From Craspedostauros australis (lineage: Eukaryota; Bacillariophyta; Bacillariophyceae; Mastogloiales; Achnanthaceae), in NCBI GenBank assembly GCA_026770025.1, contig JAMXDE010000039.1, forward strand, positions 496,001 to 560,000: 64,000 nucleotides of DNA, in the 5' to 3' direction. Shown one piece after another: positions 3,572 through 50,805 of this stretch. The position numbers were made by a program, and so were the translations under genes. The notes beneath the pieces were generated by a model that searched no databases, was not told the DNA's origin, and worked only from the letters and a program-made list of their open reading frames with translations. How positions within the stretch are numbered: position 1 is the stretch's first letter; every line of letters starts with the position of its first letter.

Positions 3572-3929
3572 GCACGCATGTGCGTATCGCTGCATACTCA
3601 AAGAGCGGAAGAATCCCCCAACGTGATTGCAACCCATTCAGAGGACGTGGTGTTCACAAAAGACAGTTGGGAGACTCGCTCTATCAAGCTTCTACGAACG
3701 ACAGCAAAGGGATAACTGCTTCAGCACCATTTAAACGAAGAACAAGAGCGCAGACGATTGCTGTTGTCTTTCAGTATCAGCGTACCGCTCTATTTTTACG
3801 AGATTATTTGTGATTCGAAGTTGCCAATGCATCCACGCTGGAGGACGCTCACGTGTCACAACTGCAGACGCGTTTTGTTGGTTGACGGAACCACGATGCT
3901 TTCATTCCATACGGCATAGCACGCGCCAC
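3572..3929. other. Intergenic, convergent gene ends
   Basis: 358 bp between the stop of the fucokinase gene (+) and the stop of the site-2 protease gene (-). It must hold both 3' UTRs and polyadenylation signals. I see no coding signal or repeat. Confidence 0.6.
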
Positions 3930-8483: not shown

Positions 8484-9983
8484 GTGCACTGTCGATACAG
8501 TGGGGGCGGAGCGAAGTGCTACTGTACATACGAGTACTACTCGTATGAATACCTTGCACAGAGGACGATGTAGTTTTGGGAAAGCATGCCTTCATCTATC
8601 ACGCTGCACCATTCCATGCCATGCCATACTCACTGCAAGTCCGCATCAGCGCCACTTCCTCGTGGAACCTTATGGGGGCACGTCTCTCTGGACGCAGTAC
8701 TCGTATGCAAAGTATAGCATGTAATTGGAATTGAAACGAAAATGAAATTAAAGGGAAGGGAACACAAACACAGCACATAGATGTGTGTACTATTAGTACT
8801 CTACGATCACTATGGTAGCTACAAATATTTCACAGTCGTCACGCAAGTATTCAACCACATCATGTAGCACATGTGTGCACTGGTACGATCATCAACTGTC
8901 TCCCAGCTACTAGCTTCGCACATTGCTCTACTCTCTGTCTCTCTGCCTCTCTGCGAATAGAGACAGAGACAGAAAGGCGCACTCATCGATGATCCATTTC
9001 ATAGTTGTAGAGAACAGACAGATTCAGACCCCGCGCTCGAACATTCGTAGATAGCAATCAATTCGCAAACTAATTACGAGTACGACCTCGGTTGATCTCG
9101 TCCTTCAACAATAACAATTCTATTGGACTCAATCTTTGTTCTAGGAAAACAATTCTCCCTCCGTGCGCTTTCTCAACGACTATTCCTACTCTCCGGCGGA
9201 CTCTGTCACTCTCTCTCTAGAGAGAGAGGACGCTGTTCTCACATTCTCCTATCTACGTTTACTCGTAGTTTGGCCACGGCACCCATCAAACACAGAATTG
9301 GCAACTGCTCGTAATCAATCACCGAGCAGTCGACTAGAGATGCAGAAGAGAGCTCCTCTTTTGGGTGGGATGGCGAAGAGAGACAACACATTGTGCCTCA
9401 GCCGCAAAACCAAGCTCACAATTTGATCCAGTTACATGAAACCAACCCTAACCACAGAGCGCCATAGATTTTCCAACATCGTTGCCAGCGCGCCACAATC
9501 ATTGTTCACGTGCTTTGCCTACTTGGCATACGCAGAAAAAAGGACCCGGATGTGCGCTGCCACGGCACTAAAATCGCAACACAGAGGAGCAACCAACCAA
9601 ATTCAAACGAACACGAAGACAACATTGAAATCTCCCTTGAGTGCGAGTATCCATGGCAATCATTCTGCCTCTCTGATCATCCAACTTAGCAACTCAACTA
9701 TTATTATAAGCTCAATCAAGTTCAATTACAACCACTTCGCTTGCATCGATACAGCAACAGGAGCATTCACCGCGTTTTGGGGCAGTCCGCATTGAGGTGG
9801 AGAACGAGACGAACATCGCCAGAGACACGATTTCGACACAACAACACGAAGCAGAACAACCAGCTCCGATCACAACCCCTTGGTGTGCCCAATTTTCCGT
9901 TGCGGCAAAGCCAACCAGCGCAGACCGCCATAGATACTATACCAGACAACGCTCCACTCCAATCCACGCGGACGGTGCACACC
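8484..9983. other. Intergenic, 1.5 kb, several small palindromes
   Basis: Between two same-strand genes. It holds a near-perfect palindrome with arms catacgagta/tactcgtatg around 8529-8549; an 11-bp stem (8932-8942 with 8959-8969, tctctgtctct/agagacagaga); a CT/AG palindrome at about 9211-9228; and several copies of the octamer tactcgta/tacgagta. The right end must contain the promoter and 5' UTR of the chromatin-reader gene. Small open frames look random. Confidence 0.6.
8529..8549. repeat. Short palindrome catacgagta-c-tactcgtatg
   Basis: Two 10-base arms are exact reverse complements around one central base, 46 bp after the stop of the N/Q-rich gene. It could be a 3'-end hairpin. The core octamer recurs in other intergenic stretches of the window. 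Confidence 0.8.
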
Positions 9984-12900
9984 ATGGATGCCGACAACAC
10001 AAGTGGCGATGCAGCATCACAAGGCGCTGCAAAGGAAGACGCCGCAAAATCCAACGAAGGAGTAGTGGATGACGATGATGCCATGGTTGCTGCACAGCTG
10101 GAAGATGACAAGAACTCTGCGATGAACAGTTCGGACCAACACGATGATGATAGCGATTACGACGATGACGATGACAACGGCGGCGACGACGATGAAGATG
10201 AAGATGAGAATGGTTTGTCCCAATACGAAAAGTGAGTGAGGCAACAGCATCGACCACATCAGCAGCAGCGGAGGGTAGACGAGAATTGATGGCAGTGGCC
10301 GCTGCCGCGAATGCAAGTGATACATCCTGCGCTCCGCGGCGGTTTTATTTGATGAACGTCGCACACTCCGTGTTGCTTTCATGCGCGGAGGTTTGGCTGC
10401 TATGTCTATGCAGAACATGCGGCACCATCCTTGCCATTGCCAAAGCTCACCCATCTTCATTTGCGACGTGCATCCACTGCTTGCGTTCGCATACTACTCT
10501 ATGCTGCCGTACTTTCCTCTCTGCGCGCTAACTTCTTTTTCTCCTTCATTCCAACTTACGAGGACCCCTCCAGACTCCGCCTCGAACGAATCAAGCGCAA
10601 CCAGCAGTACCTATCACAGCTGGGACTGGACGATTCCAAGCCAAAGGCAACGCCGTCGAAGAAACGGAAGCGGACGGACAATCCGCAACAGTCCTCCACG
10701 CCACAGGCCAGGGACCGATCCAGTCTGTCAAGACGCACCAAGCGAGATATCAAGTACACGCAGGAGAAGGGTCTAAGCAAAGAGGAGAATGAGAGGCTGC
10801 AGCAAGAAAAGGAGGAACGCAAGAGACGAAGGGAAGCAAACAGAGAACTGAAACGACAAAAGCTGCTGCAACCCCGACCAAAGAAGGAGAAGCCACTTGC
10901 GGCGCGGTTCCTCCGGATGGATCATCTGGTGTACAGCGAATTCCGCCGCATGAAGACCTTTCGTAGACAACATCTACAGACGATCGACCGTGAACTGCGC
11001 GCGGCCAAGCGCGAAGTGAGGCACTGGCAGAAGGAACTCGCACAGCATGAGAGAACTGAGAAACGGCGCTCGGAAACGGAACGCACCACGCGTCTCAGAG
11101 ACGAGGAGATGCGGCAGCTGGGTGGCCGCACGAAACTGGATCTTCTGAAAGAGATAGACAGCCGCATGGTTGAATTGCAGAATCTGATCGCACAGCACGA
11201 AGGCAATTTGCTGGTGCGCAAGACGAGGGCAGAGGCGGAAGAGAAGCAAGAACTGAGCAGGCGCAAAGTCCAGATCATGGATGCGATTGACCGCTTCCCA
11301 AAGATGATCAAGGTGAGTGCTCTACCATTCATCGTAATCTTTGTGGATGCGTAATCACGTGAATGGCCCCATGCGCACAATTATTTTGTTGGGACCAGTT
11401 AAGGGTGCATGTCGAGCTGGCCATCCACCTGGCTCTACCCTTTTCCATGTTTGTTCCATGCGGACAAAAGTGTGCTTCCGTCACGTGCGTCTCACATTTT
11501 TTGGTTCCGTCACTCATGCGAACCACAAACCCATCAAATGTTTGTCTTCCTCTCAATGATGACAAATAGGAGGCCACCGGGTCGTTGAACTCACTTTTGG
11601 TAGAAAGATGCCCCAAGAATCCAACTCAACCCCATTCCAGCAGACGTGCATCAACAAGTACCACTGCAGTGGACGATACAGAAGCTGATGACGCTGAAGA
11701 CGAATCCGAGGAAACCGTACCAGATACAGTCGCATCCTCCAAGACGCGAGCAACCAGGCGGGCATTGAAGACGGGCATTGAGGATGCAGGCGATTCGGCC
11801 CTCAACGACGACGCCAATGAGAGCTGGAAGAGCCTTGCCGCTGAACTCCAGGGTCACAACCTCGTCTCGGCATCAGATGTTGCCCGAGCCAAGCAGGCCA
11901 AGAAAGCCACTGCCCAACTTGATCACGGCGCAAAGGCCAACATTCCATCCAAGCGCGTGCTGAGCGGGCGGAACGTGGGAGGTTGGGTATCAAGCGAGTT
12001 CTCGGAACAAGTCGACCGGTCTTGGCTTGAGAAAGTCAACGGCGATCACTGTGCTCACATGGCATCATTCGTGCCGCAGATCGGTGACGTGGTCTTGTAA
12101 GTACAGCCCATATCAACGCTCTGCTCATCTAGTTGCATGCATACTTACATGCATACTTGCATGTGCGCGTGCTTGCCAAATGAAGACGCGCATTCTCTTG
12201 GATTCAATGTGTTCGGCACCTGTTGTGACTGCGGGCATGCGTCAAGATTGCACTTTGGATCACAAACACTCACACACTTGTTACTGCCGTATTCCGCCCC
12301 ATCTGTGGAGCTTTACTTCACCATCCTCCTCCACCACGCACAACCATGTCGCAACCATCACTCTCGCTAGATACTATCCTTCCGCACACAAAGCAATCTA
12401 TGACAGGTACCCTGACATCCTTGCGAGAGAGACCGGCAACCACCTGCGGACTCCATTGTGGATCAAAGCAAGGCGGGAGGCTGCAAGAATACGCAAAGGA
12501 AAGAAGGCGGCGACATCGGGAGCATCGAAACAAACTGACGGTGCCAAAGAGGAACTCAAACAGCCAGAGAATCAGCAGCAGCCACACCAGCAGCCACACC
12601 AGCAGGAGCTCTCACAACCTCAGCCGACGCCATCCTCCGATCCCGCCGACGCTGGGAAAGAAGAGAGTCGTTGGTGGAACGAGGAGTGGTTGCAAGGAGC
12701 AGAATCGGGCATGTGGGACTTCCCCATCATTTGTCGGGTTGATCGAGCGCACGCCGAATTCCCTCCCGATCCCAAAGTCAAAAAGATCAAGAAGAAAGTG
12801 GACGACGCTTCCGACAGTGCAACATCTCCATCGAACGCCAAAAGGTCGAAACCAGATAAGCCAGCGGCGAGACTTGCAGTTGCTTTGAGGCCTCTGACTC

Positions 12901-30273: not shown

Positions 30274-30830
30274 CGTGTTGGAGTTGTGTCTGTGCGGGTA
30301 TGTTCGTGGACGGGGATAGGAGAGCGAGTATGAATGCGAATTGGCAGCCCTTGTGTGATGCAGCGCGGATGCTTGTCGTGTGTCGGATGTTCGCGATGGA
30401 GGAGATGGAGTAGTTGACCACAAGAGTCGATGGTGTTGGACGGGGCTGATGGCAAACGAGGTGGATCCTGGAAGCAGATGGTGTTGGTGGTTGCTGATAC
30501 GTTGGTTGGCTTGGCTGTCTTTGTGCACTGTTTCTGGTTGTGGTTTCTGGTTTTCATCCAAACCGATCTTGTTTTTGCGCTGCTTTGGACGGAGGTGATG
30601 ATGGACAGACGTAGTATGTGATACATACATGTTTTCGCCAAATCAGCAAACTATTCTCCTTTCAACAGACTCCAAAGCAAGACTCAAGTCATTCTTCGTT
30701 TCAGTCGTATTCTAATCGACCGAATCGACAATCCAAGGATTCTCATTTCATCTGATTGGGCAACAAGGATGATTCTTGCGAGGTCCGGGCGCCAGACCTC
30801 TTGGAAAACGTGTCATTGTAATGACACGTT
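30274..30830. other. LSM7 upstream region with hairpins next to the left inverted repeat
   Basis: Contains the LSM7 promoter (minus strand). At its right edge lie a small hairpin (gaggtc...gacctc, about 30780-30800) and a 30-bp palindrome (30804-30833) that abuts the 125-bp inverted repeat. Confidence 0.5.
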
Positions 30831-30833
30831 TTC
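30804..30833. repeat. 30-bp palindrome, 14-bp arms
   Basis: Arms gaaaacgtgtcatt and aatgacacgttttc are exact reverse complements around a central gt. The last three bases overlap the start of the left 125-bp inverted repeat. Confidence 0.9.
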
Positions 30834-30955
30834 AACAAGATCGATGGATATTCCCCGATGATTCCAAATTGCTGCCTCTTAAACTTCACACATTGATAGC
30901 CCTATATGTGAGGACCCTACACAACCCTCAAGACCCCCCCCTATCTCCTTTAGTT
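30831..30955 (+). repeat. 125-bp inverted repeat, left copy
   Basis: Begins ttcaaca and ends cctttagtt. The reverse complement of 42683-42807 matches it at all but about two positions (a/g near the start, t/c in cacattgatag versus cacatcgatag), without indels. Such identity suggests recent common origin. Confidence 0.93.
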
Positions 30956-33900
30956 TATAAGTTATAAGAGGTTAAAGTTGGGTCATCGCGCCGGCCGGCC
31001 AAAAGATTTTCTCGCGATGCTCCGTGGTAAGATATTTAGCGTCTTCTGCGACACCGTTGAGATCGGCGGCAAACATGGTGTTTAGATCCCAAACAAGTTC
31101 AAACCATGGCAGGATCGGTGTTTGGACGTCCCGTCCATGGTGTGCTCGACGTCCCCCCTATGCTGTGTTCGACGTCGCACCCATGGTGTGTTGGATGTCT
31201 GGTGATGTTCTCCGGACATTCTCCACAAGACTCCTTCCCGCGGCTCGTACGAAAGCAAGACGACCGATCCTGTTCTTCGTAGCATGTCATGACATTTCTT
31301 TTCTGTTCTTCGTGCAAAATTGTCTTGCTTTTCTTTCGAAGAAGCTCCTTCCGGTTCTTTTCGTTTCTTTCGGCATCCAAAATGGTTTGGTTCGAGTCAG
31401 TCGTCGGCGTCAGCCGACCATTGCCATCCGTTGTTCAGACGTTACCCTGTGCTACAGGTTTCGCTGGCGTCATCTTCTGTTGTATCGTTCGTTAAGTAGA
31501 ATTGTGTCATTCTGCATCACATGATGTCGTCGCACCGGCTTCTTCTCCAGAGTGGGAGAATTGTGTGGGGACGGGCAGACGTATTCGATGGTGGTTTTGT
31601 TTGTTTCATCATGGTGGCTTGCTCCTGTTGGCAGTCATCAAGTACCCTACTCCTGTGTGTGTGTGTGTGTGTGCTCTCCCCTGCGCACCGCACACAATCA
31701 CCCCCTTCCTTTCGTCTCCTTCGCGCAAAAGCAGAATGCCAAAGGCACATGCCCTCTTGCGTTTCCATACAGCTCCGTGAGAGACGGGGGAGACAACACC
31801 GAGGTGCGGGTTGCTGTGGAGGGGGTGGCGAGAGACGTCAGTTTGTCGTGGGCGATTCATCCTGTCGTTTACCGCTGCAGTTCATCGGGCAGCCTCTTGC
31901 AGTTGGTCTTTTGCAGACGTCTGCACGTCCCCCTTCAGACGAGAAATGATTCGCTAGTTGACCGGCCTTCGGCATCACAATACCATCTTTATATCGACAT
32001 ATCGTAGGTGCGGGACAGGCCAAATCGGGAGGCCATGGACATGCCAGCACCTCGAGTCCGTGCACAGTCCATGTCTGGAGATGGTCGATGTCGCTCGGAG
32101 ACTCGGCTGTGGTGGCAAATCCCGAGAGCAGCGTGCCGCACCCCTTGCCTCGGCAGCACGCTGCATTCATGCAAAACGTCCGCATCGAACTTGACGTTGC
32201 CGTATCTGATGTTGCATCACATCATACGTCATCAGCATCGGAGTCTTTCACCGCTATCACAACCCCTCATCTCATGATGAAGCATCGCAATGGCAGCAGC
32301 TTCCGTATCCGTCATGGCAGGCAGCATCAGCAGCAGGAGCACTGCACATCGCATACAGCTACATCCCGTCCACGTCAGTCTCTGTGCTTGTCTTCATCTC
32401 CATGCCCGCGAGCAGCTGCACCAGCAACATGGCTCGTCACATGAGACCACATGTCTATGGCGCGGAAGTCAGTGTCCTGGTGCACAATATGGATCAACCG
32501 CCCATCCCATGCAGCCGCCTCCGATCGATGTCGGCATCCGGAGTTCATATCGAGCTGCATGCCTTTCCGCGATGGTGACTGCGGCCCTGGCTCAAATTAC
32601 AAGACCAAAACGGCCAACAGTGGCTAACCACTGGCCCTCTTCGTCAGCATCGGTGTCCGCATCCAACAACCGCACACCAAAATCAGGACCAGCACGAATG
32701 CAACTCCTCTGACGCGTTATCTCGTCGCGTCAATCTTCATGTCTCTGCCCAAGACGCACCGAAGAAGATGCCATCGAACCCTGCCGCATTTCACCACCTA
32801 CCATACAACGTTATTATGAGGGCATTGCCCACAGCAACCGCAGCAGCATCGCAGCCCACCGCGTTGGATCGGATGCAGTCGCCACTATCAACACATCATT
32901 TCATGATAGCAGAGCAGACTACGTCGCATCCGATCCATTTGGTCATTCATTCTCAGATACGATCACGCTTGTGTGCGCCACAATGGAATCACCTTGCAGT
33001 TAATCCCTTTGCGGTAGAATCACATCGCAGTCGAATCGCCTTGCCGTCCAACCACCCGCCCATCTGCAGATCGCCACACTAACACGCCACTACCCCATTC
33101 ATTCTTTGAGCCTATTGCATCCGCATCCAGTCAATGGTCACCAGCAGTACCAACACCATCGCGGCCTGTATGATCTAATCAAACTGACAACCGCACCTGT
33201 GCCCATGCCTACCAGCGGCCTCCCACGCATCGTGGATAGCGCACACCGCCTCCATGCCTGTGCGCATACCCCTATTCATCTTCTTCTTTTCGAATACGAA
33301 CCGCAACGGCAGCAAGCAAATGAAAAGAAACACGGCCGGTTGCGATGCACAGCACCAAAGCGATCGCATATCCAACTGCCACCGCAACATACCTACTAAT
33401 GCACTGTGATTTCTGTTTCTCCCTCGGCATCGCATCCCTTCTGTCGCTACGTGCGGAGGCGTGTACGTTTGCAACAGCATCGGCAGTGGCAGTGAGACAC
33501 CCACATCGACGACAACCGATCCACTCCGCGCCAAAGTTTGGGACCGTATCCGTTCGCGGTATCGACGCGGCCCATTGCATCGTGAGACGTCGACGGTTGA
33601 GTTGATGGTGACAGCACTACCTGCATCAACAGGATCATTCACAGGTAAGTATAGAAATAAAACCCATCTTTGATGCACGGACTTGTTCTCTGAACAACGC
33701 TGGTAAATGATGGAAACACTTCATTGCAACAGCTAATTCAACCACACGTACGTACGTATAATACTGTAGTATACCCTAGTATATTCAATTATCTTCTATT
33801 ATACTCTATTCCATCGTATCAGTAGTTCCGTCTGATTCCTGTTGAACTGCAACAACAGCCACGAGAGTTTTTCATCCAACTGCGCGATCCTGTTGTGCTT

Positions 33901-35664
33901 TGCGGACGGCAATCACGAGAACAACTCCAAACCAGCAACAGCAAACCCCTGGTGATGCCATACAAAACGCACTAATACATACCGATACGATACACCATCT
34001 CATTTGAACCATAAACTGAGCGTATCATGTGAATGCTGGACTTTTGACGAGAGTGAACGTCGCACTTTAATCAACATTATTTGTATTGCCATTTCGGTCC
34101 GTACGACTACGTGTTGTGATGTCCAAAAACTCTAGGGGACACCCCCGCTTCATGGTCCATGATCATGCCCATCCCCGTCACATCCATCGTATCCGAGCAT
34201 CCTATCGCTCTGAACGCTTTCGTATCCATCGGCTGGGCATGTATTGTGCCAGGTTTGCTCATTGTTCTCTCTCCAGCTTGCGATATGTGGAAATCTGGAG
34301 TTTCGACACCAGGCGAAAAACTCCGGTCCTCTGTCATGCAATCAAGACATTTCATGCATCCGACCTTCGTTGCTACCGCCATGCAGCATCCCGGATCCAG
34401 TAGGATCCAGGCAACATAGTGGCGCGGCCGAAAGGGCTGGCGAGTGGATACCCATGACGGGCGGCTTGGTTTTGCGAATGCCACTCTCGAATTGTTCGAT
34501 GCTCCAAAACCAACCTCCCGTCGTTGGCGTCGAGAATGATCCTGGTAAACATTGGAAGTTCTCACTGGAATATTACTCAACCGATCTCCCAAGTGACTCT
34601 GAGTGCTTCTTGTATGGGCGGTGTGTCCATGTCGTAGATGTGTGGCGTGGCGCCCGGTCCCAAGCGACGGGCATCGGGTGCCGCCCCTACCCCCAAAAAC
34701 TCTTGGAAACCACTTTTGCTTGTTGACGACGACGTATCCACCGCCGGATGGACGCCAAACTTCGTGGGTACCTCCATCATGATCCATTCCATACATCTTG
34801 CGCATCAATGGTGGCCGGAATGGTCTGTCTCGATCATACAGGATCTTTTCCTTGGAGCAGATGTTGCGTCAAAACGATGGTTCTGATTCCGTTCGATATA
34901 TCTCCGTCCACCGCTGGGTTATACATGCGATACCACACGTATCCATAATCTGTAAGATTTCAGATCCGTCGACGTGCTTGGAAGTCCATATGGAGGTGTG
35001 GTACTTGCGGCATATTTGATGGCCGCTCTTGGTTGTGGTTTTGGGACGCCATTGTCGTGTGTTTGTGTGGGTTTCGTTGTTTGGACCTTTGGGGTTTAGT
35101 GAAGTTTAACATTTAATGGACAAATCCGCATACAGTTTCATGTTACCTGGTTTGTTCCTTGTGCTTCTACGTCTCGTTGAGAATTTGAGCACGACAAAGC
35201 ACGTCAATCCGTGCGAGGTTTCATGGAATATGCGAGCTCTGTTTCCGTGACTGCAGTACAACACGGGAACAAATGGAAAGTCATATGTAATAAAATTTAT
35301 ACCACAATTACCGCTACCAAAAAAATTGTTTTCAGGAGGAGGAAATCACGAACAAAAACAAGAGAAGGCTCCGCAAATCAAGCTAGAGAGAGGGCGTTGC
35401 TCTCCGTTCAAAATCTGGCGACGAAAGCGGAGAATGCGGCATCGTCCCCACCTCCGGCCATGTTGATCAAACAACAATAAAAAGCGCACTATACGTTGTA
35501 TTGGTATGTAGAGTACCACACAAGACAAAACAGAACACAATACAACACAAATCATCATCTGTGTTGTTCGCTGCTGATGTGATCGTTATCCATTGGCTTG
35601 TTTACGTGAATTGGACAGATCTGGAAATGGGACCATTATTGTACTCCTCGCCATCGGCTTTTGT
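30956..35664. other. Left interior of the candidate element, no recognised gene
   Basis: 4.7 kb. Near the left end is a 7-bp stem (catcgcg/cgcgatg, 30983-31019) around a ccggccggcc palindrome. At about 31110-31205 three degenerate units of about 30 bp share ccatggtgtg...cgacgtc. A (TG)n run is at 31654-31673. The stretch 32000-33660 is cat/gca-rich. 33745-33830 is AT-rich with repeated tata/gtac steps. Frames of 100-230 codons on both strands overlap each other and match nothing that I know; 34100-34950 (minus) could be decayed coding sequence. Confidence 0.5.
31654..31673. repeat. (TG)n microsatellite
   Basis: Ten consecutive TG units in the left interior of the candidate element. Confidence 0.9.
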
Positions 35665-38349
35665 TCAACCGGAAGCAGGCGATTCTTCCTCGCTTTCAAG
35701 CACCATACCACCATGCAGAACAAGGATGCCGCTCTCATCATAATCCGGATCATTTGGGTCTCCTCCTGCCCAGGTGTCCGGGTCGGTCAACTCCATCAGA
35801 TTTTGATCGGCTTCCACAATGTCCAACGGTATCATGTCCTCCTCTTCAACCTCGTATTCCTTGTTGTTCTCTTTGTTCGCATTGTCCGATTTCTCTAGCT
35901 CTTTCAAGTACGTTATCGCACGCTTCACTGGACCTGCCAGGAATGATTTGATGAATGCTATGGTTGCCTTCATGCGTCCTTCCCAATCAGCAATCAGAGG
36001 TCCTTTCAGCAAGGCATCGTACACGACGTACGCCGTCTCTCGTTTGTCTTTATCTTTCTCACCATCGATCTTCGCCCGACAAATGATCTCTGCGACCGCC
36101 CTCGACATGAGGGGTGCCTTCTCGGACGATGCCGCGGCTTTCTGAGCTGTGGTGAGTTTCGGCTTGTCTTGGAAGGTCTTCGCCCAACCAGCTCGACAAT
36201 TGGCTGGGGCATCTTTTGTTGCGCCGTCCTTGTATGATGAACGAGGCGGGACCACTTCTTCCATTGCACGCTTCCCCACACCCTTACGCCAGTCTATTGT
36301 TTTGGTGCGGTCCTCGCCTCTCTTTCGTTTCGAGCTAGTTGGCTTCTTGGTGGATTGCGCTGCTTGCTCTGTGGATTGTGTGGCTGTTGCCTGGGTGGAT
36401 TGAGCAGCATCTTCCGAAGAATTGTTGGGTGCTGCCGAGGTGGATTGCACGACCTGCTCTGTGGATTGTGCGGCTGCTATCTGGGTGGTTCGAGCAGCAA
36501 CTTCCGTACATTCGTTGGCTGTCGCCTGGATGGAATGGGCGGCCGCAACCTCCGTGGGTTGAGCAGCATGTTCCGTAGATGCGTTGGATGCCGTCGAGGT
36601 GGATTGAGCGGCTGCTGCCTGGGTGGAGGGCGCCGCTTGCTCCGTGGATTGTGTTGCTGCTGCCTGGGTGGATCGAGCAGCATCTTCCGTAGATTCGTTG
36701 GCTGCTGCCTGGGTGGATTGCGCTGCTTGCTCCGTGGATTGTGTGGCTGCTGCCGGGGTGGAATGTGCAGCCTGATTCGTGGAGTCGTCGGCTGCTGCAG
36801 GGATGGAATGTGCTGCCTGATTCGTGGAGTTGTCGGCTGCTGCTGCAGTGGCTTTCGCCGCCTGCTTCGTTGATTTCTTGGCTCCTCCTGGCTTGATGAC
36901 GAACGCAGCCTCCACTGGCTCCACCGTGCCCTTCAAAATGCTCATCTCGAGGTTCTGCATGTAGTACTTGTCGAGGTGCTTGTCCACCAACACTGGATCT
37001 GATACATCCGACGACGCCGTGACTTTGACACTGCCGTTACGAAAATCCAACTCATGCGTGGCGCGAGTTTTGGGTGGGATGGTGGTGGAGAATGTTGTTT
37101 TGCGCGTTGGATCGACTGGGAACAGAAGCGGCGCTTGCAGGTCTTTTCCCTCCAACAGCAACGTCACGCTGCCTTTGATCTGCTTCCCCACAAGAATATT
37201 GAACACATGCTCTTCCGTTTGTGATTTACCGTTTTCGGATCCGTCAATGTACCAAGTGAGACCTTTATTGATGTAGCTGAAGTGCGCATCCAGCAGCCCC
37301 TTGCCTGTCTGGGCCTCCGTAAACAGCCATCGGATGATTTGATGAGATGGTCTGGGCGGTGCGTTGGCGCTGTTGATGGTCTCCACCTCTGCTTTGGCCG
37401 CAGCATAGACTTCTTCTGTCTTGGGATCCTCGGCTTCGGGATTGAATGCGACGCCCTCCTCCCCGCGATTCCGCCCATGAATGTATCGCATCAGCGACGG
37501 ACTCAAGAAGCAGCTAGCATTGTCACTTTGTATCACGATTTCTGTCCGATCAGGGTGCATCTTGGGCAGGATCTTCGTCATGAGCAACTTGAGCGCTCCA
37601 GCAACCTGCACCTGGTCCTGTGAATGGTAGGTTTTGATGAGCAGATCCACGAAACGATAGTGATAGGCACCATCTTCAAACGTAATTGTCATCACACCCA
37701 GCAACGACATACCTCTCTTCCCAAAGTATTCAGATTGGGCCTCTTTGCTGCAGATAGGCAATATTTTCTGCTTGTGATCGAGCACCACCATCATCTTGCG
37801 CGGATTGTGCTTCAGAGATTCCTTCTCCTCCCGAATTGCCTCGAATTGGACCATTGCCCTCACTTTGTGACTCATGTATACTCGAAGCTGCTCCTGGCAG
37901 ATAAGGACAGCCCCAAACATCGTCTCAACTTCTTTCCTGTTCTCTTCGCCTCGAACATGCTTGATGGCACGGCGCAGAAACTCTTGGACACGGACTGGAA
38001 AGAAATCGTGGATGTCTGCGCAACGTTCGCACACTTTCTCGGTGTGGATGTCATAGTCGGAGCGGAGCGCATATTCACACGAATGCAGCATGTCGAATAC
38101 GGAACGAAGCTTCATGTGCGAATGGGTGTAGTCCCACTTGACAAATGCGAAGATTTCGTTCCAATCTTCGACAATCCTTCCTATCTCGTCGCGAAGCTCC
38201 TTCCTGCTGTCATCCTCGCCAAGCTCCTTCCTCCTGTCATCCTCGCCAAGCTCCTTCATGCTGTCATCCTCGCCAAGCTCCTTCTTCCTGTCAACGCCGC
38301 CCAGCAACACGCCGAGTCTCGTAAACATATCCGAAAGCTTCACTGATAC
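35665..38349 (-). CDS. Transposase-like RNase H-fold protein, C-terminal half of an interrupted frame
   Basis: Frame open from just after a TAA (38352-38350) to the stop at 35665; about 895 codons, without an ATG at its left end, so it is probably not an independent gene. It begins VSVKLSDMFTRLG, followed by four 9-residue repeats of KELGEDD. The core has the layout of a DDE-type transposase: an Asp in VVLDHKQKILP (codon 37779-37777), then QSEYFGKRGMSLLG, an Asp in VIQSDNASCF (37524-37522), and an Asp in AQTGKGLLDAHF (37290-37288), spaced 85 and 78 residues. The SDN/SDG...GKG-x-x-D pattern recalls uncharacterised transposases of many eukaryotes, but I cannot name the family. The C-terminal third is Ala/Gln/Ser/Thr repeats (about 36350-36870) and then charged sequence. 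No homology search was possible. Confidence 0.6.
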   Translation of the reverse strand, partial: VSVKLSDMFTRLGVLLGGVDRKKELGEDDSMKELGEDDRRKELGEDDSRKELRDEIGRIVEDWNEIFAFVKWDYTHSHMKLRSVFDMLHSCEYALRSDYDIHTEKVCERCADIHDFFPVRVQEFLRRAIKHVRGEENRKEVETMFGAVLICQEQLRVYMSHKVRAMVQFEAIREEKESLKHNPRKMMVVLDHKQKILPICSKEAQSEYFGKRGMSLLGVMTITFEDGAYHYRFVDLLIKTYHSQDQVQVAGALKLLMTKILPKMHPDRTEIVIQSDNASCFLSPSLMRYIHGRNRGEEGVAFNPEAEDPKTEEVYAAAKAEVETINSANAPPRPSHQIIRWLFTEAQTGKGLLDAHFSYINKGLTWYIDGSENGKSQTEEHVFNILVGKQIKGSVTLLLEGKDLQAPLLFPVDPTRKTTFSTTIPPKTRATHELDFRNGSVKVTASSDVSDPVLVDKHLDKYYMQNLEMSILKGTVEPVEAAFVIKPGGAKKSTKQAAKATAAAADNSTNQAAHSIPAAADDSTNQAAHSTPAAATQSTEQAAQSTQAAANESTEDAARSTQAAATQSTEQAAPSTQAAAAQSTSTASNASTEHAAQPTEVAAAHSIQATANECTEVAARTTQIAAAQSTEQVVQSTSAAPNNSSEDAAQSTQATATQSTEQAAQSTKKPTSSKRKRGEDRTKTIDWRKGVGKRAMEEVVPPRSSYKDGATKDAPANCRAGWAKTFQDKPKLTTAQKAAASSEKAPLMSRAVAEIICRAKIDGEKDKDKRETAYVVYDALLKGPLIADWEGRMKATIAFIKSFLAGPVKRAITYLKELEKSDNANKENNKEYEVEEEDMIPLDIVEADQNLMELTDPDTWAGGDPNDPDYDESGILVLHGGMVLESEEESPASG
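36350..36870 (-). repeat. Degenerate coding repeats, AQSTEQAAQST type
   Basis: More than ten imperfect units of about 10-12 codons encoding Ala/Gln/Ser/Thr (STEQAAQSTQAAA-like) in the C-terminal part of the transposase-like frame. Confidence 0.85.
38192..38295 (-). repeat. 27-bp tandem repeat encoding KELGEDDxx
   Basis: Four units, the last one diverged, at the start of the frame downstream of the TAA. Confidence 0.9.
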
Positions 38350-40725
38350 TTACATCATGTCAACGTAGTAGGAAGACAGGCCCGTTTGGCACTTGCCACG
38401 CCTGGTCAGGAGCGCGAATATCTCTCGGAATGTGTTGTACCCCACCGGCTTGTTCTCAACGCTCATCTTGTACTTGCGGAACAACCCTCTCACGGAGTTT
38501 TTGCCGCGCAGAAACACAGGCAATCCTTCGTAGACGATGCCATGCGTTTTCACCGAGCGCGATGTGCTGGGTTTGTAGTGTGTGACTGAGGTGAGAAAGG
38601 AAATCAACCCCTGCAGCTTTTCCTCGCAAAGACGGGTTCGCTTTCCCTTGAGCGGGACCTCGGCTCCGCCAAGAAGCTTGATTGCATCCTCCATTGCGTT
38701 GTTGTAGCAGACATGCCACAGGTTCGTGCGCATGGAATCGACCTGTGCTCGCTGTTCTTCTGAAAGCTTGTCTGCGTGCCCGCGGAGAATTTTTGCGCAG
38801 TCTTCGCGGCTGGAGGTGTGGGCGAGGATTGCGCGTCCCATTTGTGCCACGTCATGGCTTCCAAAGAATATCATCAGACAGACAGTCTCCTCCAATGTCG
38901 TTGATGGCAACTGTTGGTCCTCTCGCACAAACTTCATGACTTCCTTCAGCTGACGAAGAGGCGTCGTGTTCGAAAAAAGTATTCTGGATCCGACAGCGCT
39001 CAATTCGTTCCAGGCCCGGGTGATCACTGACCACATTCGTGATTGTAATTCGGTGTTGTCTGGGACCTTCACGAAGCCGTTGTTTGGGAAGTCTCTCAAA
39101 TAGGCTGCGTGCCTTTGTCCTTCGGCGAGAATAGAGATCAGCTTGCTTTTCATCGTTTCATCGGCGTCCGATTCGTTGCCGTTATCTTCGGCTTGGTCAT
39201 AGTCGCTGTCGTTGTCGTCGCTGTTGCCGCTGCCCTCCTGTTCGTCGGACCTGAGTTCGAGGACACTCATCATCTCCGCGTCTGCGCTTGGGTCTGTCGA
39301 CTCTGCGTCATCGAGGATCTTGACATCGCCCTGGACATCAGCATCATCATGTGGCTCATCGTGCGGCTCCTCCTGAGCACGTTGCTCAGCCACATCAACG
39401 TCACGAACTGCGCCAGTGCTTGCGTTGTTGGTGATGGTTTGGTCATGACCGTTGCCGATGTCATTGTTGGTGTGATGGCTGTCCTTGACAGGCGTGTCGG
39501 TCCCTGCCGGGGTGTCTGTTGCATCGAGCGTCTGGTTGTCAATGACCTCCATTTCCATTGTTGGCGGATCGGGGTTTTGGACTTGAAGACTTGCATGGTC
39601 GGTTGGTTTGTTCGTCGCAGCGTGTGTTGGTGTTGGTGTTGTTGTTGCTGCTGCTGTGGACGTGAAGTCATTGGTTCTGATGGCTGATGCAACAAAGCAG
39701 TCCATGCAAAGTCCCAAATCAACGCCGTCTTGGAAGCAACAAGCTAGAGTACAGAAGTGCTCGTTGCATCCGACACACCTCATGATGCCGAAACGGTTGC
39801 GCTGTCCTGGCTTTGTGGTGGTGGTGGTCGTGGTGGTCGTGGTGCCGGCAGCGACCGCGGGTGGGGTGGCGAATTGATGGCTGTTGTGTGCGACTGCGCC
39901 ATGTTCTTGCGACGGATCGCGCTGCCCTGGTTCAGTGGCAACTCCACTCATGGTGGAATGCGCATTGCCGTCAGAGGAACTTGGAGGATTATCGGATCCG
40001 AACTGGGGGTGAGTAGCAGGTGGCGTGAGATGCATCTGCAGTTGCATGTGCGAATGCTGCTGCAGTTGCGTGTCCACATATGGTTGAGCAAGTGAAGTAT
40101 GTGGCTCTGCTCGGAGTGGGGATGGCGATAGTGGAGACCCACTGTATGCCGATTGCTGCCAATACGTTTGTCCAGCCGCATATTGTGGTGCAGGTGGTGA
40201 AGAGTATGCGGTGTGATAATGTTGATCATGTGCTCTGCCACTGTACGCATACGTGCTCTGGGGTGGTGATGTCACAGGGTGCGACCATCGTGGTGGCATT
40301 CCATACAGGTACGGCGGCGCCTGCGTGTGTGGCACCCCGTGCCATGGTGGAGGCAAGTACTGTGGTGGCATCCGATGCTCTGGTGATGGCAGAGGAGGCA
40401 TTGCAGGAGGGGAGAAGTACGGTTGAGAATCACGCAGGACAGATGCCCCAAAACTGGAGGCCTGTCTGTAGGGGGATGGTGTGTTGGTCTGGTACCCCGA
40501 GTGATGCTCAAAGGTACCATCGTGAGCACGATGTCGTTTGTGTGGCGGAGACCTTCTGCCATAGTACGGTGCTCCTCCAAGTGCACGATTCATGGTGCGA
40601 AGGGGACGATTCCAGGTAGTTCGGTCTGTATGTGTGAAAGTAGATGGCTGTGCTGGTGGTGGTGGTGTGTGCTTGTGATTGTCTGTTGTTGCTGCTGGTG
40701 TTGCTGTTGGTGATGAATCATGCAT
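38350..40725 (-). CDS. Zinc-cluster N-terminal half of the same interrupted transposase-like frame
   Basis: 791 residues from the ATG at 40725 to the TAA at 38352-38350, in the same reading frame as the transposase-like half that follows at once. Residues 1-280 are Pro/His/Ser/Gln-rich. A Cys cluster follows (MRCVGCNEHFCTLACC, then GLCMDCF), consistent with zinc binding. An acidic stretch lies at about residues 450-520. The C-terminal 200 residues are ordered: RGLFRKYKMSVENKPVGYNT, FREIFALLTRRGKCQTGL, SSYYVDMM. The DNA-binding domain before the catalytic core of a transposase would fit here. The stop lies inside ATGATGTAAGTATC, which also has a perfect GTAAGT donor, so splicing over the stop is possible. 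Either reading makes the two halves one gene or one pseudogene. Confidence 0.55.
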   Translation of the reverse strand: MHDSSPTATPAATTDNHKHTPPPPAQPSTFTHTDRTTWNRPLRTMNRALGGAPYYGRRSPPHKRHRAHDGTFEHHSGYQTNTPSPYRQASSFGASVLRDSQPYFSPPAMPPLPSPEHRMPPQYLPPPWHGVPHTQAPPYLYGMPPRWSHPVTSPPQSTYAYSGRAHDQHYHTAYSSPPAPQYAAGQTYWQQSAYSGSPLSPSPLRAEPHTSLAQPYVDTQLQQHSHMQLQMHLTPPATHPQFGSDNPPSSSDGNAHSTMSGVATEPGQRDPSQEHGAVAHNSHQFATPPAVAAGTTTTTTTTTTKPGQRNRFGIMRCVGCNEHFCTLACCFQDGVDLGLCMDCFVASAIRTNDFTSTAAATTTPTPTHAATNKPTDHASLQVQNPDPPTMEMEVIDNQTLDATDTPAGTDTPVKDSHHTNNDIGNGHDQTITNNASTGAVRDVDVAEQRAQEEPHDEPHDDADVQGDVKILDDAESTDPSADAEMMSVLELRSDEQEGSGNSDDNDSDYDQAEDNGNESDADETMKSKLISILAEGQRHAAYLRDFPNNGFVKVPDNTELQSRMWSVITRAWNELSAVGSRILFSNTTPLRQLKEVMKFVREDQQLPSTTLEETVCLMIFFGSHDVAQMGRAILAHTSSREDCAKILRGHADKLSEEQRAQVDSMRTNLWHVCYNNAMEDAIKLLGGAEVPLKGKRTRLCEEKLQGLISFLTSVTHYKPSTSRSVKTHGIVYEGLPVFLRGKNSVRGLFRKYKMSVENKPVGYNTFREIFALLTRRGKCQTGLSSYYVDMM

Positions 40726-42682
40726 CGATCATCTCTAGCATCGTCCCAAACGAAAGCACTCCAGATCACCAAGTATCCCACGCTTCCCGTGGAAGCTAGT
40801 GTTGTACTTGACCTCTCACCAACATCGTGACTGGGTATCTGTCAACGTGGAAGCTCATGACCAGAGAATCTGCCATGTTCGATGTGCCTGTTTGTCAGGG
40901 GGGGGAAAATCGATTGGTTGGGATAGCCAGCCCTGATCCGAGAATGGATGGATGCGAGCAGTTACTCGTAACGGCAGACAAGGCCCTTAGCCAATCATAT
41001 CGCTTGAAATACGTCAAGGTGAGGGGGAATTCCTAAATTCGAAGACAAAGTATCCAGTTGAACCGAAGACATATGCACCCAAATTATGTCTCCAGAATGT
41101 CTCAGTGATATCAATTGGGGGCCACTGCAAACCGCCAATTCGCTGCTCCGTGGGCGAAAGCCTCGTGGAACAACACCACACAAACAGCCCAGCCGATGTC
41201 GCTCGCGTGCATGTCGGAAGGAGACGAAGGTGCAGCTCTCCAATGGTGTGTCACACGAGGGTGACAACGAGAGAGCCAGAGACAACGAACAGCTTCTACA
41301 CTCATCCTTGAGTGAGGTATCAGTCTGGTACATCAGCACTTGTCGTCTCTCGACACCAGTGGGAAGCAAAGTCGACATCTACAACACGAACGACACAACC
41401 AACTCCGTGTCAGCACGCCCTCAACTGTAGGTTCGTGCAGCGGCTACGGCGACCGTTTGCATCAGAGATGGAAAGAATGTCATCATCTCTGCGATTCAAC
41501 GGGACCTCCCCTCACAGACCCAGACTTTCCACGCAGATCAGCACGAAGATGCATCCTGCAACCCACCCTGGAGAGGTTTCCTGATGACACACCATATGAC
41601 GAAACAGAGAGAGGCGAACGGAGGCAAGGTACATCGCCATTGCGAGCTGCGAAAACCAGTCCCTCGATTTCCCCCTAACACGCGAGTGAAGCAAAGCCCG
41701 AAGTTGACGAGAACGCGCTAAGAGGATGATAGGAACCATGTGGCAACCGTCATCCTCATCTCCACTTCTCTCTCTCTCTCTCTCTCTCTCTCACGCAATT
41801 CGCACTTCAGGAGCCGCTTTCCATCCTTCCAGCTCCCTTTTCGTGCTGGCGTCGAAACTTCCCCTTGGCTTGGTATCTATCAGAAATCCGCATGTATCAC
41901 CTCTTTGCAACATGCACACAGGGACGTGTGTGTACGACATGGTCGAATTCGGAATGCTACTCTGCGTGCCTGGACAAGCAAGTCGTGGCCCATGCCAGTT
42001 TGATCGGCGTCCTACAAGCGCGTCTACATAGACAAGTACTCTACGACCCCGACAGTTCTACCAACTCGCGTGATGGACATGGTGCCACATGGTACCATAT
42101 GTCGGGAACAACGCCGACGAACCTCCATCGGGCGCCTCAGAGGAGAAAGGAGAGGGCAACATTGACAACCTGTTGGGAAAATGACTTCAAGCAAGAAAAT
42201 AAGCGTCAAGCGGATCGGAACAGCAAAGGCATTTCCTACGATACGTACCTATTACAATTATTTAGTGTACCACAATACCAGGTAGATGCAACCAAGCCAT
42301 TGTTACAGTAACAACATACAGATCTGGAATAATGTGCTGCAGTCTTCCACCAATCCTTCATGGACACATTCTGGGCGCATTGGTGTGCAGTGTCGTTGGT
42401 TGAATCAAAGGTGTGTTGTCCCCGTTTGCGGCAACCACACTGCGAACTGAAATGCTGCGCCACGGAGCCGAGCAAGTCGTGGAAACCATGGGCGCCAATT
42501 CTGCAACGGACAATGACATGTCGTGTTGGACTAGCTTCCCACTTTTTCAAACACTGATTGTCGAACGAGAACCCCAATCTTTCCCGAAATCCACACTCAA
42601 AAGTATCAAAACAGTGACGTCTGTACGTCGCCTCCAAATTAGTTGTAGCCTTTCCTCAAAACTAAAATTAAAATAACTTCTG
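40726..42682. other. Right interior of the candidate element, no recognised gene
   Basis: About 2 kb upstream of the interrupted frame, so its promoter should lie here. A (CT)n run is at 41767-41792 and a tactcgta octamer at 40963-40970. Frames of 60-150 codons on both strands have no recognisable motifs. Confidence 0.5.
41767..41792. repeat. (CT)n microsatellite
   Basis: Thirteen consecutive CT units directly readable. Confidence 0.9.
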
Positions 42683-42807
42683 AACTAAAGGAGATAGGGG
42701 GGGGTCTTGAGGGTTGTGTAGGGTCCTCACATATAGGGCTATCGATGTGTGAAGTTTAAGAGGCAGCAATTTGGAATCATCGGGGAATATCCATCGATCC
42801 TGTTGAA
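42683..42807 (-). repeat. 125-bp inverted repeat, right copy
   Basis: Reverse complement of 30831-30955. Its outer end lies 318 bp before the ATG of the cathepsin X gene, so an insertion here would have landed in or near that promoter. Confidence 0.93.
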
Positions 42808-43125
42808 CCCGGGTCTTACAAGAAAGAAGAAAGGAACGAAGAAGATGGATGCAGAAAGAACGATGACACGAGACAAAAACATGGATGGGAAACATCATGG
42901 CGATCACACACACAGACACGACAAAGAACAAGATCTTTGGGTCTCCGCGGATCGTGCGAAAGAAGAAACGCAACGACCGCGAAGAGGAGTTGAGATACCA
43001 ACGCCAATCATAAAACAGAAGCAAACCTTGCGGAGACACCAACACCAAGAGAGAATAGGACAGGATTACCAACAAGACGCCACTCATACCCTACTTAGAA
43101 CAACGTTAGACAGAAGCCACCCACC
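42808..43125. promoter_or_regulatory. Upstream region of the cathepsin X gene
   Basis: 318 bp between the right inverted repeat and the cathepsin start codon. Purine-rich (gaaagaagaaagg, aaagaagaaacg). It should hold the promoter and 5' UTR. No TATA box stands out. Confidence 0.45.
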
Positions 43126-46111: not shown

Positions 46112-48703
46112 ATGGTCTTCATCCTCCCCCAACTCGTTGTGATGTTCGCCTCACCATTGCGCAACCACAACCATCACGTCTGGGCATCACTATCCACGGC
46201 CTCACCGTCTCTCCTTCCGCTCAAGTCGACCCCTGGTGATGCACCCCCGCCAACCATCACCAACCAGAATCTCCTGCGCGCCGCAGAACGAGGAGATGTG
46301 GACACCCTCACCGCGTGGAGGACATCATTTCCACAAACCTCCATCGACACGATCAAGGACGACCGTGACAAGACTGCACTCCACCTCGCATGCTCCAACG
46401 GCCAGCTTGACGTGATCAAGCAGTTGATGGAGTCATGTGGAGCAAACATCAATGCCCAATCAATGAATGGAGAGACTGCGCTACACTATGCATGCGCACA
46501 GGGCAACGTCGACGTTGTGGAATACCTAGCCGGGGCGCATGCTGCAGATGTCAACCTCCAGGACAACTTCGGCAAGGTGGCACTCCACGACGCATGCACC
46601 GAGGGGCATATGGCCATCGTGAAGACTCTGATCAAGGTGGATTCTGCAAGCGCTCTCGTGCAAGATGAGAAGGGTGAGAATGCCCTCCATGCCGCGTGTC
46701 TTCATGGACACTTGGATGTTGTGGAGTACCTCGTTGGATCATGCGGAGTCGACATCAATGTGCAAGATGATTTCGGCAATACTGCGATCCACGATGTGTG
46801 TCTGAAGGGTCATCTTGAAGTTTTGAAGTATGTGATGGAGAGTCGCACTGTGTCCATCAACGTTCAGAACAATGACGGCGATACCGCACTTCGTGTTGCT
46901 TACAGAAATGGTCATTTGGATGTTGCAGAGTACCTGGTGAAGTCGTGCAAGGCAGATATTCATGTTGAGAATGACACTGGTGGCGCGGCTCTTCAGTCTG
47001 CATATTCCAAAGGTCATCTGGATGTTGTGAGATGGTTGGTGGAGTCAGGTCAGGTGGACGTCAATGCCAAAGACCAAAATGGTGACACTGCCCTTCACCG
47101 CGCAAGTGCTGGAGGCCATCTGGATGTGGTGGAGTATTTGTTGAAGTCAGATGACCTGAAGGTGGATGGTAACGCCAAGAACAAGGCTGGCAACACTGCC
47201 CTTCACTGCGCAAGTGTTGGAGGTCACCTGGATTTGGTGAAGCATTTGTTGGACTCAGGCAACGCCAACATCGATGTCAGCGCCGAGAACAAGACTGGCA
47301 ACACTGCACTCCATCTCGCAAGTGGCGATGACCATCTCGATGTTGTGAAGCAGCTGGTTGAATCCGGTAAGGCCAATATCAACGCTGAGAACGACGAGTG
47401 CGAGACTCCACTCCACAAGGCATCGTTCAACAACCACTTCGATGTTGTCAAGTATCTCATCGGAACACCAAACATATATCCCAACGCCCGAGACGAGGAT
47501 GGCAACACTGCGCTCCATCTGGCAAGTGGCGATGGCCATCTCGATGTTGTGAAGCAGCTGGTTGAATCCGGTAAGGCCAATATCAATGCTGAGAATCACG
47601 AGTGTGAGACTCCACTCCACAAGGCATCGTTCAACAACCACTTCGATGTTGTCAAGTATCTCATCGGAACACCCAATGCTGATTTGAACGTAAAAGACGA
47701 GGATGGCAACACCGTGCTCCATCTCGCAAGTGGCGATGGCCATCTCGATGTTGTGAAGCAGCTGGCTGAATCCGGTAAGGCCAATATCAACGCTGAGAAC
47801 GACGAACACGAGACTCCACTCTACAAGGCATATTGCCACAACCACTTCGATGTTGCCAAGTATCTCATCGGAACACCAAGCATACATCCCAACGCGCAAG
47901 ACGAGGATGGCAACACCGTGCTCCATCTCGCAAGTGGCGATGGCCATCTCGATGTTGTGAAGCAGCTGGCTGAATCCGGTAAGGCCAATATCAACGCTGA
48001 GAATGACGAACACGAGACTCCACTCTACAAGGCATATTGCCACAACCACTTCGATGTTGCCAAGTATCTCATCGGAACACCAAACATATATCCTAACTTC
48101 CGACACAAGGATGGCAACACCGTGCTCCATCTCGCAAGTGGCGATGGCCATCTCGATGTTGTGAAGCAGCTGGTTGAATCCGGTAAGGCCAATATCAACG
48201 CTGTGAACGACACATACGAGACTCCACTCTACAAGGCATATCACAACAATCATTTCGACATTTTCAAGTATCTGGTCGCAGCACCAAATGCTGATTTGAA
48301 CGTAAAAGACGAGAAAGGCAAAACCATCCTCCATCGCGCAAGCGCTAATGGTCATCTCGACGTTGTGAAGTCGTTGGTTGAACAAGGCAAGGTAGATGTC
48401 AACATCAAAACCAGCAATCATGGCAACACAGCAATGCACTTTGCGAGCATCAATGGCAGATTGGAAGTCATGAAGTATTTGGTGGAAGTCTGCAACGCAA
48501 AAATCAACATTCGGAACAAGTATGGCGGAACTGCACTTCGGTTGGCAAGTGGGAATGGTGAATTGGAAGTCGTCAAGTACTTGGTAGAATCGTGCAACGC
48601 AGACATCAGCATCAAGACCAGCAGTGGCTTGACTGCGCTGAATATTGCGAAAGAAATCGGCTACACTGATGTTGTCGACTATTTGACCCCTCTTGCTTCA
48701 TGA
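46112..48703 (+). CDS. Ankyrin-repeat protein with about 24 repeats
   Basis: Single exon, 863 residues. The first 60 residues include a hydrophobic start (MVFILPQLVVMFASPL), possibly a signal or anchor sequence, and a Pro/Ser-rich linker. From about residue 50 to the end there are about 24 ankyrin units of 33-36 residues with the usual G-x-TALH-x-A-x-x-x-GHLDVV-x-x-L core. Units 11-20 form five tandem pairs, each pair exactly 204 nt (47297-48316), alternating TALHLASGDGHLDVVKQL and TPLHKASFNNHFDVVKYL types. No other domain (kinase, BTB, membrane segments) is found after the repeats, so it is a pure binding scaffold as far as can be seen. The partner is unknown. Confidence 0.88.
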   Translation: MVFILPQLVVMFASPLRNHNHHVWASLSTASPSLLPLKSTPGDAPPPTITNQNLLRAAERGDVDTLTAWRTSFPQTSIDTIKDDRDKTALHLACSNGQLDVIKQLMESCGANINAQSMNGETALHYACAQGNVDVVEYLAGAHAADVNLQDNFGKVALHDACTEGHMAIVKTLIKVDSASALVQDEKGENALHAACLHGHLDVVEYLVGSCGVDINVQDDFGNTAIHDVCLKGHLEVLKYVMESRTVSINVQNNDGDTALRVAYRNGHLDVAEYLVKSCKADIHVENDTGGAALQSAYSKGHLDVVRWLVESGQVDVNAKDQNGDTALHRASAGGHLDVVEYLLKSDDLKVDGNAKNKAGNTALHCASVGGHLDLVKHLLDSGNANIDVSAENKTGNTALHLASGDDHLDVVKQLVESGKANINAENDECETPLHKASFNNHFDVVKYLIGTPNIYPNARDEDGNTALHLASGDGHLDVVKQLVESGKANINAENHECETPLHKASFNNHFDVVKYLIGTPNADLNVKDEDGNTVLHLASGDGHLDVVKQLAESGKANINAENDEHETPLYKAYCHNHFDVAKYLIGTPSIHPNAQDEDGNTVLHLASGDGHLDVVKQLAESGKANINAENDEHETPLYKAYCHNHFDVAKYLIGTPNIYPNFRHKDGNTVLHLASGDGHLDVVKQLVESGKANINAVNDTYETPLYKAYHNNHFDIFKYLVAAPNADLNVKDEKGKTILHRASANGHLDVVKSLVEQGKVDVNIKTSNHGNTAMHFASINGRLEVMKYLVEVCNAKINIRNKYGGTALRLASGNGELEVVKYLVESCNADISIKTSSGLTALNIAKEIGYTDVVDYLTPLAS
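47297..48316 (+). repeat. Five 204-bp tandem units (two ankyrin repeats each)
   Basis: The same phrase (ctccatct...gcaagtggcgatg) starts at 47309, 47513, 47717, 47921 and 48125, always 204 nt apart. The frame is preserved and unit identity is high. Confidence 0.95.
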
Positions 48704-49155: not shown

Positions 49156-50805
49156 TTACTTCTGCACACCCATCTCTTCGTCGCTCTCGGCGGCGCTGTC
49201 GTTCTCCTCGTCCTGGTTCAGCTTGTTCATGGCGGCAGTCTCCATGCGAAGGGCAGACTCGAAGACGGCGGCATCCTCCTCGTTGCTGCACGAGTTGATC
49301 TCCTCGCGGAGTCCCTTGATGTTCGACAGGATGCGCTCGCGACGGACGGAGTAAGATTCGGTCTGTGTGGCCAAAGCCTTCTGGAGCTCGAGGTACTCGC
49401 GTGGGACGGCAGTGGAACCGGCCTCACCGACAAGCACGTTGGTTCCCAAGTGCATGTTGCGGTTGCTCTGGTGGTCTGGCTTCATGCCGGCGGCGCGCTC
49501 CTCTGGGGTGCCGATGTACACCTCATCGAGCTGGAAGCCAGAGACGGCCTTGTGGATGGAAGCGAGAACCCAGGCTCCGGAGCAGATACCAGTGGCCTCC
49601 AACAACAGACAGAACTGGAGGAAGATGTAGACGATTGGGTTGGAAAGGAAGGCGATTGGGAAGACGGATGCGACCAGCTGCCATGTGATGGAGGCGATGA
49701 TGGTGGTGATGAGAGCTCCGAGAAGTCCGGTGTTGAAGAATTCCTGGGTGCTGTCGGAAACTCCGAAGATGTTCTCGCCAGTTCCGACCTCGACATCGAG
49801 AGTGGTGACACGGGCGATGATGAAGAAGCACATGGTCACGCAGATCTGACGTCCGATCATGAATCCTGGAAGGTTGCGTCCGTCACCGCGGAAGAGGAGC
49901 TCGCAGGTCTTGCGGGCCATTGGGTGGTCTCCACGGTCCTCCTTTGGAAGCTTGGCGACGGCGAAGAAGGCGATCTGCATACCCTCGAGCATACCCACGA
50001 TGGACATGAAGAGGAAGAAGAGGATGACGGCGACTCCGTTTGGCACTCCGGCCCACATGGTGGTCTTTCCATCGAACAGGGCGACGAGGGTGACGGCCAT
50101 GGCGTAGCACAGGATGGCGAGGGAGATGAGGATGCGGCCCCAGTAGAAGAGGTTCTGGGCACCGTCGCGTGGTGGTTCCTTGGACTCGATTTCCTTGCCG
50201 GAGGCCCAGACGAAGAACATCTGAACGAGGTAGCACGAGTGCAGAAGTCCGGAGAACTCGATGGCGAGGGCGACGTAGAGGGTGAAGACGGCGAAGAAGT
50301 TGTTGATGTAGTCAAGCATGCACAGGGAGGCGTTGACTTGGGAGTTGAGCTGTCCGGCTTGAGCGGTCATGAGGATCATGGCGGCTCCGGATCCGAGGAA
50401 GATCTGGATGATGATGTCTGGGAGTCCGAAGACTTCGGCATCGGCGAGCGGGGCACCGCACTGGTTGATGGTGAAGACCATGAGGAGAACCATGAACTGA
50501 CGTCCCATGAGGTAGCGGTCGAGGTTGTCACCCTTGTGGGCGAGGGAGGTGCACTTGTGGCTGGTTGGGTGGGATTCGACGTAGAGGTCGCGGTCGACTG
50601 GTGGGAGACCGACGAGGGAACCCTGTCCTCCCTCAACCATGTTGAGCCAGACGAGGGCCGTGATCATGATGACGACGGCGACCACTGGGTGGACCTCGGA
50701 CGAGACCTTGGTCTGCTCATTGAAGATGAGTCCGCAGACGATGGCGATCGAGAAGATGAGGAGTCCGGTGGAGTACACCGACTTGATGAGCTGAACGGGA
50801 TCCAT
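49156..50805 (-). CDS. SIT: Silicon transporter (silicic acid, SIT family)
   Basis: Imports silicic acid, probably with sodium, for cell wall silicification. The start is taken at MDPVQLIKSVYS (50805); the frame continues to an ATG at 50874, but the extra 23 residues look like translated 5' UTR. 549 residues with about ten membrane helices. Both family motif pairs are present: EGGQ (58-61) with GRQ (101-103), and EGMQ (274-277) with GRQ (318-320), placed symmetrically in the two halves. Other family-like stretches are DYINNFFAVFTLYVALAIEF and SGLLHSCYLVQMFFVWASG. The C-terminal 90 residues are a hydrophilic, partly coiled-coil tail (YLELQKALATQTESYSVRRE onward) ending in acidic residues. No introns. 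It is divergent from the ATPase gene at 51873. An antisense frame of similar length is an artefact of codon bias. Confidence 0.96.
   Translation of the reverse strand: MDPVQLIKSVYSTGLLIFSIAIVCGLIFNEQTKVSSEVHPVVAVVIMITALVWLNMVEGGQGSLVGLPPVDRDLYVESHPTSHKCTSLAHKGDNLDRYLMGRQFMVLLMVFTINQCGAPLADAEVFGLPDIIIQIFLGSGAAMILMTAQAGQLNSQVNASLCMLDYINNFFAVFTLYVALAIEFSGLLHSCYLVQMFFVWASGKEIESKEPPRDGAQNLFYWGRILISLAILCYAMAVTLVALFDGKTTMWAGVPNGVAVILFFLFMSIVGMLEGMQIAFFAVAKLPKEDRGDHPMARKTCELLFRGDGRNLPGFMIGRQICVTMCFFIIARVTTLDVEVGTGENIFGVSDSTQEFFNTGLLGALITTIIASITWQLVASVFPIAFLSNPIVYIFLQFCLLLEATGICSGAWVLASIHKAVSGFQLDEVYIGTPEERAAGMKPDHQSNRNMHLGTNVLVGEAGSTAVPREYLELQKALATQTESYSVRRERILSNIKGLREEINSCSNEEDAAVFESALRMETAAMNKLNQDEENDSAAESDEEMGVQK

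Follow-up and report, generated by a model that had tools for sequence, protein, structure and literature searches.

The block at positions 30823-42815 of the window is, with a probability of about 0.9, one long, recently inserted and now broken copy of a cut-and-paste DNA transposon family. The window is the whole stretch that was analysed, 64,000 nucleotides of contig JAMXDE010000039.1 of the diatom Craspedostauros australis. Coordinates are window positions unless a contig is named, and features given without a strand have none assigned. We assign the family to the cut-and-paste class because it combines paired ends (13 inverted pairs in the genome), 4-bp target duplications (11 of the 13 pairs), near-identical copies, and a transposase gene for which an RNase H core is predicted. 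The preliminary description, made from the letters of the window, had proposed a large DNA transposon, and the same evidence upholds that reading. The result is a large transposon family, apparently moving until recently, whose exact ends and target site are defined, in a genome that also carries a more numerous related family.

Ends, target sites, and copies of the family

The stretch 30831-30955 is the reverse complement of 42683-42807 apart from 2 mismatches in 125 positions, and the two align without gaps, in agreement with the near-identical inverted repeats first reported. Elsewhere in the window, the repeat had no match longer than 16 bp. The genome searched was the window's own (74.8 Mb, 90 contigs; counts of repeat matches are lower bounds), and it contained 30 matches. 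Rather than standing alone at many loci, 26 of these made up 13 inverted pairs with spans of 3.6-12 kb, and the remaining four were unpaired, on truncated or interrupted copies of the family (contigs C45, C57, C66, and C85). Copies are named by contig, the window copy being C37.

Comparison of the copies placed the true family ends 8 bp outside the 125-bp repeat, starting with GACCCGGGTTCAAC. With these bases, the left terminal inverted repeat covers 30823-30955 (plus strand) and the right one 42683-42815 (minus strand). The right terminus is the standard GACCCGGG, and the outermost 8 bp on the left read GACACGTT in its place. The limits of the whole element (about 12.0 kb with the terminal 8 bp) follow from the ends of the 13 paired copies and from a 32-bp end pattern. 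A genome scan with this pattern, allowing up to three mismatches, detected 28 of the 30 family ends, all of them exact, and its reversed control had no match. The two ends without the pattern were the left ends of the window copy and of C2b. A chance origin of the repeat is excluded because of the 30 matches in 74.8 Mb and the 28 against 0 matches of the 32-bp end. The preliminary description had similarity ending sharply at both edges of the 125-bp repeat; the repeat is real, but 28 of the 30 family ends put that boundary 8 bp too far in. Similarity seemed to stop at 30831 because the outermost 8 bp are changed at the left end of the window copy.

Alignment of the flanks of the copies, recommended at the outset for detecting target duplications, revealed 4 bp that were identical outside both ends in 11 of the 13 pairs, and all 11 were NTAN. 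The duplication is 4 bp, and not TA, because the outer N bases match on both sides too. Beyond these 4 bp, no base stood out strongly among the sites, which are only 11. The exceptions were again the window copy and C2b. In the window, TTAC at 42816-42819 is the right copy of the expected NTAN duplication; its left partner is missing, with TAAT there instead.

The 13 pairs measured 12.0 kb (window), 11.2 kb (C58), 5.9 kb (two), 4.7 kb (one), 4.0 kb (five), and 3.6 kb (three). Their identity over the left 1150 bp was 98.4-100%, gaps excluded. Judged by its sequences, the family has moved recently, because the copies are this similar and 28 of the 30 ends are identical over 32 bp. The shorter copies correspond approximately to the long element minus middle parts and fall into common structures. 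The 4.0-kb structure was present in six copies (C27a, C27b, C8a, C2b, C80, and C58, the last with an extra 7.2-kb insert), and the others were of 3.6 kb (n = 3), 5.9 kb (n = 2), and 4.7 kb (n = 1). Some shorter copies contain stretches that are missing from the window copy. Because the deleted forms themselves were multiplied, we infer that a transposase acting in trans was required. About 7.6 kb of other DNA splits C57, the second of the long copies. Two side observations concern individual loci: the copy at C58:247016-258204 carries in its insert a 1912-amino acid open reading frame (ORF) whose scanned part has an RVT_2 reverse transcriptase domain, and at C27:132059-140055 two 4.0-kb derivatives are separated by about 40 bp, each with its own target duplication (TTAT and TTAA).

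Three points weigh against a single transposon copy: the aberrant left end and left duplication in the window, the closely spaced derivatives at C27, and the examination of a single assembly. The first two would suit a composite in which unrelated host DNA is flanked by a pair of separate short elements or by a product of recombination. This is largely refuted by C57, which is collinear with element positions 2746-11636 of the window copy at 99%, and the deleted copies retain both unique sub-ends in unchanged order; we consider a composite very improbable. The third point bears on a segmental inverted repeat or an assembly artefact, to which we give next to no weight, as it is refuted by the perfect duplications in 11 of 13 pairs; the 30 repeat matches over many contigs and the identity of 28 of the 30 ends also speak against it.

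A broken gene and a gene-free interior

The sole long gene with an RNase H/DDE-like core that had been noticed in the block was recovered as one main gene, split into two ORFs in the same frame on the minus strand. Its first part (38350-40725, minus strand, 791 codons) ends at the stop codon that interrupts the gene (38350-38352). The second part (35665-38343, minus strand, 892 amino acids) contains the predicted RNase H core, with D189, D274, E343, and D352 in the numbering of this ORF. As candidate catalytic acids D189 and D274 are clear. The third may be either E343 or D352, the latter in the helix that follows strand 5, and each of these two is conserved to at least 90%. A tandemly repeated linker (36349-36870, minus strand; units of 45 and 90 bp) lies within the ORF, mostly at a predicted local distance difference test (pLDDT) score below 50. 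The modelled structure predicts a transposase with an RNase H fold. The window copy probably no longer makes the full transposase, and the only other family copy retaining the transposase core is also broken. The ratios of nonsynonymous to synonymous substitution (dN/dS) between C37 and C57 were 0.57 and 0.67, based on 26 and 23 changes, too few to prove constraint.

No convincing Pfam model for the transposase was found across 51 members: 48 families appeared at E ≤ 1, and the best 25 of the 48 each matched at most two members. The rve integrase model (2 of 51 members, best E 0.09) is not claimed. A TFIIA match of the transposase ORF, below the curated cut-off and partly over the repeated linker, was likewise rejected.

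The approximately 6.7 kb of gene-free DNA described earlier was confirmed. It consists of the left interior (30956-35664), without a recognisable gene, and the right interior (40726-42682), without a long ORF. At about 42463-42466, the right interior carries a deletion by comparison with copies that have 340-620 bp more there. Of the 12 other paired copies, 11 retain the leftmost 2.9-3.5 kb of the element and C13 retains 1.2 kb.

Captured host DNA, which had been suggested as a source of this interior, is not supported. All 21 genome matches of the right interior were family copies, as were 18 of the 26 matches of the left interior. The rest were four long matches at 70-72% over 33876-35125, which belong to a shared repeat, and four short ones. 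The stretch 33876-35125 is about 70% similar to this separate repeat, a family on contigs C8, C9, and C12. Two of the four long matches were read; their mutual identity was 90%, and the stretch they have in common is longer than what they share with the window. Between these two copies and the window, divergence was about equal at the three codon positions, that is, there was no codon-position bias, in a simple test that a gene with phase-shifting introns could escape. A Pfam scan of five interior ORFs gave no match at E ≤ 1 for four, and a sub-threshold Cas3_HD match (E 0.17) for the fifth. Capture of a host gene is thus not shown: interior matches are mostly family copies, the 1.25-kb shared stretch showed no codon-position bias, and Pfam lends no support. 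The other suggestion, partial decay, agrees with the in-frame stop, with the changed left end, which has no matching target duplication, and with the loss of sequence near the right end that other copies retain.

The altered left end and a possible mechanism

A perfect palindrome with 14-bp arms and a 2-bp spacer spans the left junction (30804-30833). It is the only palindrome in the window with arms of at least 11 bp and a spacer of at most 4 bp. It occupies the place of the standard terminus GACCCGGG, and the TTAC duplication that would be expected there is absent. The left flank was single-copy in the genome (200-bp search). At C2b (contig C2, near 466797), a similar left-junction palindrome was seen by eye, with 9-bp arms, a changed terminus, and loss of the simple target duplication. 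From these two junctions, it is plausible that such palindromes trace one-ended cleavage followed by fold-back repair. The left end would be cut, the flank end would fold back and serve as primer for a short copy of its own sequence, and the result would be joined to the slightly trimmed element end. If confirmed, the palindromes would be a readable trace of failed excision.

For the family as a whole, the transposase would bind the ends of about 133 bp and cut at GACCC, and the element would insert where a 4-bp staggered cut is centred on TA. The 3.6-5.9-kb derivatives may result from failed gap repair and would then be moved in trans. Because the ends are defined and both shortened derivatives and open, related transposase genes are present, trans-mobilisation of giant elements becomes directly testable.

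Two other genes were recorded in the window. An ankyrin-repeat ORF of 863 amino acids (46112-48703) contains long tandem DNA units that are about 87-88% identical, and a silicon transporter gene lies at 49186-50805 (minus strand). The genome contained 88 silicon-transporter match segments, and none of 14 control genomes was over the cut-off. Silicon-transporter genes are typical of diatoms and also occur in some other silica-forming protists.

Relatives and superfamily placement

The second, more numerous family in the genome has a transposase core about 45% identical to that of the first. Its one measured copy (C1:~1399006-1412509) is 13.5 kb long, with GACCCGCTGCAGC termini, ATAA on both sides, and inverted repeats of 44 bp at 84%, much less alike than those of the window element. 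A left-end probe of this family had 25 matches; 22 of the 24 non-self ones started at query positions 37-51, at the proposed end (position 48) or close to it. A right-interior probe had 38 matches, of which 34 (C1 included) covered it almost from end to end, at 86-100% identity. In some copies, the matches of the two probes are 19-24 kb apart, and nested insertions may lie between them. Around position 28622 of C45, a right end of the first family abuts a left end of the second, with one ATAA between. Judged by the measured copy, both families share GACCCG termini and an NTAN duplication. Beyond GACCCG, one 13-bp inverted match between their repeats, equalled in 6 of 300 shuffles, is not claimed as further likeness; three other comparisons were equalled in 133-147 of 300.

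The closest relatives, on C14, C43, and C28, are 60% identical. GACCCG was not found on either strand of the C14 stretch examined, nor were the ends of these three elements found; a first candidate for a right end proved to recur some 600 bp beyond. More remote relatives come from protist transcriptomes, Phytophthora, a rotifer, and metagenomic collections. Pattern matches in viral_contigs (60) and genome_contigs (13) included no viral or prokaryotic relative confirmed by tblastn, and a fold search of BFVD gave nothing at E ≤ 0.001.

KDZ elements have target duplications longer than 4 bp. The giant KDZ and EnSpm elements of the brown alga Ectocarpus belong, by name, to other transposase families; they resemble the window element in exceeding 10 kb, in nested insertions, and in often broken transposases (PMC12477816). 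Tc1/mariner was rejected for its 2-bp TA duplication (PMC10741241), against 4 bp here with the bases flanking TA also matching, and piggyBac for its TTAA-only target (PMC7351741), against one TTAA among 11 sites. Ginger2/TDD elements share 4-bp duplications (most Ginger2), AT-centred targets, and an RNase H-type core. Ginger was nevertheless ruled out by its TGTNR ends, and Ginger2 targets are RTATAY (PMC2836005), whereas the window family has GACCC ends and a target fixed only as NTAN.

An undescribed superfamily, distinct from Sola and characterised by GACCC termini, an NTAN duplication, a D-D-E/D core, and large size, seems unlikely but worth considering. The scattered Pfam result over 51 members speaks for it, and literature searches returned no recognised description with these termini in the excerpts covered, a silence that says little because the original Sola description and Repbase lie outside the comparison. 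The 4-bp duplication, the giant size in stramenopiles, and the possible D-D-D core fit published Sola elements instead. A bolder version is more doubtful still: a superfamily of giant transposons with oomycete and rotifer protein relatives, whose cleaved flanks would leave fold-back palindromes recording one-ended cutting.

We regard Sola (Sola1-like) as the most likely named superfamily, at slightly better than an even chance; membership is not claimed, as the likeness is one of duplication length and size and not of compared proteins. Sola differs in its variable published termini and in the ParB/methyltransferase cargo domain, of which there was none in the seven interior ORFs scanned. Its D-D-D triad would be matched here if D352, and not E343, is the third acid. 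Sola is alike in its 4-bp target duplications, in a size that can exceed 15 kb (PMC10741241), and in its occurrence in a stramenopile. Sola is reported for the diatom Cyclotella cryptica (PMC7466962), and the giant transposons of Ectocarpus include a 21.5-kb Sola-1 family, Sola1-1_Ec32 (PMC12477816). In these giant families, a broken transposase gene is common, and mobilisation in trans has been suggested (PMC12477816, PMC10741241).
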